DNA from: Oscillospiraceae bacterium
Lineage (GTDB): Bacteria; Bacillota; Clostridia; Oscillospirales; Oscillospiraceae
Direction of reading: 5' to 3'
Assembly (NCBI GenBank): GCA_015068125.1
Contig: SVLD01000003.1
Span: 1-64,000 of the forward strand
DNA length: 64,000 nucleotides
In this document: in pieces, positions 39,344-41,980 of the stretch
Position numbering within the stretch: position 1 is the first letter of the stretch
Layout: every line of letters starts with the position of its first letter
Position numbers and translations under genes: made by a program
The notes under the pieces: model-generated
What the model saw: the letters and a program-made list of their open reading frames with translations, nothing else
Told to the model about the DNA's origin: nothing
Databases searched by the model: none

Positions 39344-41785
39344 TTGAAATTGAAATTTACGGTTACCGGCATGACCTGCGCCGCCTGCTCCGCCCGGGTG
39401 GAAAAGGTGACCCGGGGGGTTTCCGGTGTAGAAAATGTGGAAGTTAATCTGCTCTCCGGCAAGATGCAGGTAGAAGCTGAGGAAGCAGCGGCGGAGAAAA
39501 TCATCCAGGCTGTTGCGGATGCCGGTTACGGCGCATCTCTGGAGGGCGAAAAGAAGCCCAAGGAAATCCGGCAGGACAAAACGGAAAAAGAAATGAAGAT
39601 CCGGATCATCGGTTCTGCGGTATTTCTGGTGATCCTCATGTATTTTACCATGGGGCACATGGTAGGATTGCCGGTGCCTGGCTGGTATCACGGACGGGAA
39701 AACGCGGTCACTGCCGCCCTGTTGCAGTTTTTGCTGACACTGCCGGCAGTATACCTGAATCGGACATATTTCGCCAAAGGTCTGAAAGCTTTGTACCACC
39801 GCAGTCCCAATATGGACTCTCTCATCGCGGTAGGCTCCGGCGCATCTCTTATTTATGGTGTGACAGCTCTGTTTGTTATGGCCAATGCCATGGGCAGAGG
39901 CGATTGGGAAACCGTCAGCCGCTACCGGGAAAACCTTTACTTTGAATCTGCCGCCATGATCCTTACGCTGATTACGCTGGGAAAATTCCTGGAAACCAGA
40001 GCGAAGGGAAAAACCGGTGATGCTATTCGGGCGCTGATGGATCTGCGCCCGGAAACCGCCACCGTCTTGCGGGATGGCAAGGAGGAAGTGATCCCTGCCG
40101 AAGAAGTCCGGGTGGGGGACCTGGTGGTTGTTCGCTCCGGCGGACGGATCCCGGTGGATGGCACCGTGGTGGAGGGTCGTGGCGCTGTGGATCAAAGCGC
40201 CCTTACCGGCGAAAGCGTCCCGGTGGAAAAGCTCCCCGGCGACTCGGTGGCGGCGGCTACTATCAATACCGAGGGCTACCTCTGCTTCCGGGCGGAAAAG
40301 GTGGGTGAGGATACAACCTTACAGCAGGTGATCCGTATGGTGGAGGAGGCCGGTGGCTCCAAAGCCCCCATCGCTCGGATGGCGGATAAAATCGCCGGTA
40401 TCTTCGTACCGGTGGTCATGGGAATTGCGGCGCTGACCTTTGCCGGCTGGCTGATTGCCGCCAAACCTTTGGAATATGCTCTGACTGCGGCGATTTCCGT
40501 GCTGGTGATCTCTTGCCCCTGCGCATTGGGACTGGCCACGCCCGTGGCCATCATGGTGGGAACCGGTCGTGGCGCCGGTCTGGGCGTACTGTTTAAAAAC
40601 GGCGCGGCCCTGGAAAATCTCCATAATGTGGATACTGTGGTGCTGGATAAGACCGGCACGCTGACCACCGGAAAGCCTGCTGTAACGGACATCCTGCCCG
40701 GCAGCCTGAAAGAAACGGAATTGCTTTTCTTGGCAGCGGCTCTGGAAAAACCCTCGGAGCATCCCTTCGCCAAAGCAATTTTGGAGAAAGCGCAGCAGGA
40801 GGATTTACCTGCTGTATCGGAATTTGAAACCCTGCCGGGCCGGGGTGTTACCGGTATTTTGCATGGTGTGCGGTATTACGGCGGCAACCGCCGACTCATG
40901 GAGGCGCAGGGGATCGCCGTCCCCGACTATGATTATCTTGCCCAGGAGGGAAAAACACCCCTGTACTTTGGCACACAATCCGGTGAATTCCTGGGCACTA
41001 TCGCCGCGGCGGATGTACTGAAAAGCGATTCTGTGGAAGCCGTGGCAGCTATGCAGAAGCGAAAGCTGAAAGTGGTCATGCTCACCGGTGATAATGAAAA
41101 AACCGCGCGCTCCATCGCCAAATCCGCCGGCATCCCCGAGGTCATTGCCGATGTCCTCCCCGCCGATAAGGCCAATGCCGTAAAAAATCTGCAGGCCCAG
41201 GGCAGAAAGGTGGTCATGGTAGGCGATGGCATCAACGACGCCCCGGCTTTGGTCACCGCTGATGTGGGTATCGCCATCGGTGCCGGTACGGATATCGCCA
41301 TGGAATCTGCGGACGTGGTGCTGATGTCCGGGTCGCTGATTGGCGTCAGCAACGCGGTGGGACTTAGCAAAGCCACCATCCGCAATATTCGACAGAATCT
41401 TTTCTGGGCATTTTTCTATAATTGTCTGGGAATCCCCGTGGCGGCCTTGGGCATGCTCAGCCCTATGATCGGCGCGGCGGCTATGAGCGTAAGCTCTGTG
41501 TTTGTGGTCACCAATGCCCTGCGGCTGCGGCGATACCGGACGGAGCAGAAAAAGACAGACCCCAAACCGAAAATCAAGGAGGAAATCAAAATGGAAACGA
41601 TCATTCAGGTAAACGGCATGATGTGCCCCCACTGCAAGGCTATGGTAGAGAAAGTCTGCAAGGCCGTCCCCGGCACTGTGGATGCCGTGGTGGATCTGCA
41701 GGCGAAAAATGTCACCGTCACCGGCGATACATCCCTGGAGGCCCTGAAAAAAGCCATCATCGATGCTGGCTACGAAGTGGTATAA
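39344..41785 (+). CDS. copA: Copper-translocating P-type ATPase with N- and C-terminal HMA domains (TTG start)
   Basis: GMTCAACSARV, SCPCALGLATPVAI, DKTGTLTTGKP; C-terminal GMMCPHCKAMV. Confidence 0.94.
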   Translation: MKLKFTVTGMTCAACSARVEKVTRGVSGVENVEVNLLSGKMQVEAEEAAAEKIIQAVADAGYGASLEGEKKPKEIRQDKTEKEMKIRIIGSAVFLVILMYFTMGHMVGLPVPGWYHGRENAVTAALLQFLLTLPAVYLNRTYFAKGLKALYHRSPNMDSLIAVGSGASLIYGVTALFVMANAMGRGDWETVSRYRENLYFESAAMILTLITLGKFLETRAKGKTGDAIRALMDLRPETATVLRDGKEEVIPAEEVRVGDLVVVRSGGRIPVDGTVVEGRGAVDQSALTGESVPVEKLPGDSVAAATINTEGYLCFRAEKVGEDTTLQQVIRMVEEAGGSKAPIARMADKIAGIFVPVVMGIAALTFAGWLIAAKPLEYALTAAISVLVISCPCALGLATPVAIMVGTGRGAGLGVLFKNGAALENLHNVDTVVLDKTGTLTTGKPAVTDILPGSLKETELLFLAAALEKPSEHPFAKAILEKAQQEDLPAVSEFETLPGRGVTGILHGVRYYGGNRRLMEAQGIAVPDYDYLAQEGKTPLYFGTQSGEFLGTIAAADVLKSDSVEAVAAMQKRKLKVVMLTGDNEKTARSIAKSAGIPEVIADVLPADKANAVKNLQAQGRKVVMVGDGINDAPALVTADVGIAIGAGTDIAMESADVVLMSGSLIGVSNAVGLSKATIRNIRQNLFWAFFYNCLGIPVAALGMLSPMIGAAAMSVSSVFVVTNALRLRRYRTEQKKTDPKPKIKEEIKMETIIQVNGMMCPHCKAMVEKVCKAVPGTVDAVVDLQAKNVTVTGDTSLEALKKAIIDAGYEVV
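41591..41785 (+). CDS. Possible separately initiated CopZ-like copper chaperone nested in copA (same frame)
   Basis: AAGGAGG at 41576-41582, 8 nt before ATG at 41591; 64-aa HMA domain METIIQVNGMMCPHCK. Confidence 0.55.
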   Translation: METIIQVNGMMCPHCKAMVEKVCKAVPGTVDAVVDLQAKNVTVTGDTSLEALKKAIIDAGYEVV

Positions 41786-41851: not shown

Positions 41852-41980
41852 ATGTATTCTATTCGCTATATTCAAGGTCATGTCCAGGTATATGACAACA
41901 GAGGAAACTTCCTGTTCTCGGCAGACAGCGAGAGGGAAGCACGAGAGGAATTGAGAGATTATGCGGAATCTGCGGCTTGA
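41852..41980 (+). CDS. 42-aa small protein MYSIRYIQGHVQVYDNRGNFLFSADSEREAREELRDYAESAA
   Basis: RBS AAAGGAG 9-10 nt upstream of ATG; overlaps truA start by 20 nt; absent from supplied ORF track. Confidence 0.7.
   Translation: MYSIRYIQGHVQVYDNRGNFLFSADSEREAREELRDYAESAA

Follow-up and report, generated by a model that had tools for sequence, protein, structure and literature searches.

We consider it very probable that copA (39344–41785, + strand) of the window, by which we mean the whole 64,000-nucleotide stretch of the contig of an Oscillospiraceae gut bacterium that was analysed, houses at its 3' end an in-frame copZ-like gene (41591–41785, +) that is translated by internal initiation, so that one gene, here and in many related Clostridia, would supply both a copper pump and a free copper chaperone. 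Ribosomes starting at 39344 would produce full-length CopA with its C-terminal HMA domain, and an AAGGAGG within the coding sequence would recruit other ribosomes on the same mRNA to the ATG at 41591, giving a free CopZ-like Cu(I) chaperone of 64 residues. Sequence and conservation lead us to infer that ribosomes do begin at this ATG and that the resulting protein binds Cu(I) and delivers copper to CopA.

Anatomy of copA and its nested open reading frame

The copA open reading frame (813 aa) runs uninterrupted from a TTG start at 39344 to the TAA at 41783–41785, with no stop codon ahead of the C-terminal HMA domain. Its product is predicted to be a copper P1B-type ATPase by both Pfam and NCBIfam: the Pfam domains are an N-terminal HMA, E1-E2_ATPase and Hydrolase, followed by another, complete HMA at the C-terminal end, and the protein passes the curated cut-offs of TIGR01511 (copper-translocating P-type ATPase; 582.6 bits vs 397) and TIGR01525 (633.7 vs 346.25). 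The N-terminal HMA (39356–39529, +; 55.7 bits) carries the motif GMTCAAC, and CAAC is found at this site in 30/30 of the genus. The motif of the C-terminal HMA is GMMCPHC, and CxHC recurs in 234 of 245 fused and 24 of 26 split relatives; such a copper site is typical of chaperones like B. subtilis CopZ rather than of ATPase N-terminal domains.

The nested open reading frame comprises 64 codons and the stop and encodes a complete HMA domain with an MxCxHC motif. As the first-pass annotation had claimed, copA ends in a complete 64-residue HMA: positions 41591–41782 cover residues 2–62 of the 62-residue Pfam profile (55.7 bits, cut-off 24.8). The best NCBIfam matches of this domain alone are CopZ families, all of them under their cut-offs (best NF047957 with 67.9 bits vs 85, the others further below), which is why it is called CopZ-like here and not CopZ. 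Among solved structures, the nearest in sequence are HMA domains of bacterial CopA, and CopZ proteins were matched too. No separate copZ was seen in the organism's own 1.58 Mb genome (87% complete), in which the two HMA domains of copA are the only ones found. The genome's only CsoR-family (PF02583) gene (G000:C10:70376-70612, L341) lies on another contig and not beside copA.

A linker (about 41540–41590, +) joins the ATPase part to the C-terminal HMA, and its last codons, ATC AAG GAG GAA ATC AAA, directly precede the in-frame ATG (41591–41593, +), the candidate start of the nested gene. These codons create AAGGAGG at 41576–41582 (+), 8 nt before the ATG, and the earlier description of this site proved exact to the base. 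By itself AAGGAGG is unremarkable in the window, where it occurs 16 times on both strands together, a second copy within copA lying at 40079; the copy at 41576 is the only one on the + strand that is followed by an ATG after 4–11 nt, and it is comparative data that raise this putative Shine-Dalgarno (SD) sequence above chance. Downstream, between copA and truA and overlapping the truA start, a 42-residue open reading frame (MYSIRYIQGHVQVYDNRGNFLFSADSEREAREELRDYAESAA; 41852–41980, +) preceded by AAAGGAG encodes an unnamed small protein, a close relative of which is found near the same place in three loci (L085, L086, L088).

Conservation of the internal Shine-Dalgarno sequence and start codon

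Relatives were drawn from 61 genomes of the same genus (own genome included), 295 genomes across the order and 293 across the class, many of which are incomplete metagenome bins. A start codon at the first residue of the HMA is retained in 230 of 245 distinct fused loci. AGGAG or GGAGG stands at the right distance before 84% of these nested starts (n = 230), as it does before 81% of separate downstream copZ genes (n = 26), compared with 1.1% of the other in-frame ATGs of copA bodies (n = 2,044) and 0% of the fused loci without a start (n = 15), the last value being partly definitional since three GTG/TTG codons were accepted as starts solely on account of an SD ahead of them. When only ATG was counted, in an earlier set, an SD was found in 1 of 15 start-less loci (L185, a GTG). 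The energy of pairing with the anti-SD is −8.66 kcal/mol for nested starts and −9.10 kcal/mol for separate copZ genes, against −2.40 kcal/mol for other internal ATGs.

Linkers were also recoded synonymously with pooled codon usage in the 122 fused loci with an ATG that came from whole-genome searches; the set of named records was left out because one of its search peptides was the linker KIKEEIKM. AGGAG or GGAGG at −16 to −4 was observed 98 times, whereas 100 recoding runs gave a mean of 36.1 and a maximum of 46, and the mean anti-SD energy was −8.48 kcal/mol observed vs −5.70 kcal/mol recoded. This null is conservative, since it retains Lys and Glu residues that may owe their presence to the SD. 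Moreover, the motif is read in two codon frames that specify different peptides (KEE-type in 76 loci, KGE-type in 18), which indicates that the bases are conserved and not the amino acids. Together, the synonymous null and the switching of codon frames rule out chance KEE codons as the source of the motif. Information in the linker peaks at −15 to −9 and shows no codon periodicity, the protein sequence of the linker not being conserved, and the modal spacing from AGGAG to ATG is 9 nt. SD and ATG are lost jointly (Fisher p about 1e-5, whole-genome loci, the p-values being descriptive as the loci are phylogenetically related). The proposal that one open reading frame could yield an ATPase plus a free chaperone draws support from an SD and ATG conserved across the class despite an unconserved linker protein.

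Loci that lost the start and loci that lost the ATPase

Fifteen fused loci have no start codon, and about 16% of the kept starts lack AGGAG/GGAGG, some of these having a weaker SD. On a tree of 198 rows, start and no-start states change at least 6 times among the fused rows. For several of the start-less loci no strong separate copZ was found, which suggests that some lineages can do without the free product. Complementarity, that is, loss of the start where a separate copZ exists, was considered and dropped, as the counts gave no clear difference and the genomes are incomplete. One genome (G029) holds a separate copZ with TAAGGAGG adjoining degV (L085), and its copA lies elsewhere and has a C-terminal HMA without an internal start (L064). 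In another (G018:C13, L015), the C-terminus of CopA bears two tandem HMA domains with no internal start.

The converse situation is found in five genomes of the same genus (G003, G037, G005, G032 and G042; loci L083, L084, L086, L087 and L088), in which the body of copA is missing or decayed, a recurrent loss of the ATPase at this locus within one genus. These loci adjoin degV (L083, L084, L088) or, in the window's terms, an exporter-like gene beyond degV (L086, L087). By tblastn, short copA fragments are present in L084, L086 and L087, two of these fragments lying in another reading frame than the HMA, and no convincing copA fragment was found in L083 and L088. In all five, an HMA open reading frame of 65–66 aa is still open with an ATG, preceded by AAGGAGG, GAGGAGG, CAGGAGG, CAGGAGG and a weaker AGGGGGA. 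The pN/pS of the remnant, calculated against the nearest fused copy in an alignment anchored on the motif, is 0.21–0.28, indicating that the HMA stays constrained though the ATPase is gone there. Another copA type is present elsewhere in G005, G032 and G042; in G003 and G037, both incomplete genomes, no other copA of either type was found.

These loci bear on the possibility that the C-terminal HMA acts only as a fused metal-binding domain, in the manner of Archaeoglobus fulgidus CopA, with the SD and ATG as leftovers of an old copZ or as a by-product of a linker rich in Lys and Glu. Complete translation of copA always yields the fused domain, and some relatives hold a fused HMA with neither start nor SD, behind linkers rich in Ala and Pro (L015, L026–L028, L064–L066). 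However, leftovers should have decayed across the depth of a class, and the synonymous null and the switching of codon frames also speak against this reading. The start-less relatives themselves show that a fused function has no need of the SD, whose retention elsewhere must have another reason, and the HMA open reading frame persists after copA has decayed. We therefore regard a purely fused role as unlikely.

Less likely still is that the internal SD makes the ribosome pause to aid folding or membrane insertion of CopA and does not mark a start. The position of the SD, immediately behind the final membrane and ATPase segments, would be a plausible pause site. For a pause, an ATG at the proper distance from the SD would be superfluous, yet the two are retained, and lost, together, and separate copZ genes have an SD of equal spacing and strength.

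Fused and split forms among relatives

Of the 61 same-genus genomes, 60 gave a match, and the C-terminal HMA is present in almost every copA copy that is near full-length. Although the linkers of the genus vary in length and sequence, they repeatedly contain an SD (AAG GAG GAA, CAG GAG GAA, GAG GAG GAA, AAG GAG ACA and others) and, about 8 codons ahead of GMMC, an ATG in frame. The same fusion of copA with an HMA extends beyond the genus to the family, the order and the class, and it occurs in many families of the order- and class-wide samples and in many independent assemblies. Named records include the near relative Candidatus Faecousia faecipullorum as well as Fournierella massiliensis, Gemmiger, Agathobaculum and Acetobacterium tundrae (L260); a few unexpected taxon names (Oxalobacter, Sphaerochaetaceae, Atopobium) may stem from errors in binning. 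A second copA type in the genus (L069–L080, L091, L092), 52–55% identical to that of the window, also has a C-terminal HMA, mostly with SD and ATG, and the nested start accordingly either had two origins or existed before the two types diverged.

Separate copA and copZ genes with a stop between them, which the first-pass annotation had proposed to look for, do exist: pairs in the order copA, stop, SD, copZ occur elsewhere in the order and class. The proportions of fused and split loci are not prevalences, as a fused query ranks fused loci higher. On the 198-row tree, calculated with the linker left out, the state changes between fused and split at least 5 times, vs 23–26 times with shuffled labels. 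The same annotation had named a stop before the ribosome-binding site in relatives as a sign of recent read-through, and the close relatives turned out to be fused too. Although split pairs with stops are known elsewhere in the order and class, the idea that this strain recently lost the stop codon, or that a sequencing error did away with it, so that two normal genes became joined, is so improbable that we regard it as ruled out, given that nearly all sampled copA of the genus are fused, that the fusion pervades the order and class samples across many independent assemblies, and that the tree shows few state changes.

Since split pairs exist, the nested gene probably descends from an old copA–copZ pair. 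An adjacent pair would have lost the copA stop codon and retained the second start, and the ribosome-binding site of copZ, by then part of the copA reading frame, would since have been maintained by selection.

Relation to known systems and significance

In E. coli, one copA gene gives rise to a copper ATPase and a free HMA chaperone, CopA(Z), the latter by programmed frameshifting and from the N-terminal HMA, according to the passages of PMC10187127 and PMC7558416 that cite Meydan 2017 and Drees 2017. The likeness to the present gene would be that pump and chaperone come from one gene. The first-pass annotation was correct in contrasting the two: here a C-terminal HMA, an internal SD and an in-frame ATG are involved, as opposed to an N-terminal HMA and a frameshift in E. 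coli. The heptamer CCCAAAG, which we take to be the slippery site of E. coli copA and which alone was searched for, is absent from the copA of the window.

Unlike in the E. coli frameshift, the metallochaperone is typically encoded by a separate gene (PMC10187127). Separate copA–copZ pairs of Clostridia and other Bacillota share with the present locus the gene order, the SD strength and spacing before copZ and the CxHC site, whereas here no stop lies between the two, and the copZ codons are read as the end of copA as well. A C-terminal domain that is also made from an internal in-frame start has been reported for rpnL/rpnS (PMC10327210) and for cas8b/cas11b (PMC11899642), in both of which the small product was shown experimentally. 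Those proteins and their functions are unrelated, and the small product of copA is here predicted from sequence. The CopA of Archaeoglobus fulgidus also has a C-terminal metal-binding domain, as mentioned in PMC7558416 with reference to Agarwal 2010. Both proteins are copper ATPases with a C-terminal HMA, and it is the clostridial gene that has a conserved internal start. To our knowledge, no internal start has been reported for A. fulgidus CopA. A search of the open literature, with subscription journals largely outside its reach, returned no description of a copper chaperone made from an internal start.

Since annotation calls a single protein, Clostridia with a fused copA appear to lack CopZ. 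On balance, we lean towards the broader view that much of the class Clostridia obtains its cytosolic copper chaperone from a nested in-frame gene, the outcome of an ancient fusion with a selected start, convergent with the frameshifting copA of E. coli and setting the ratio of pump to chaperone by translation alone. The locus also offers a large natural data set on a conserved internal start, in which split, start-lost and copA-lost versions serve as natural controls. If true, internal initiation in copA would be a second independent route to a copper pump and a chaperone from one gene, which would suggest that linked production of the two is itself selected.
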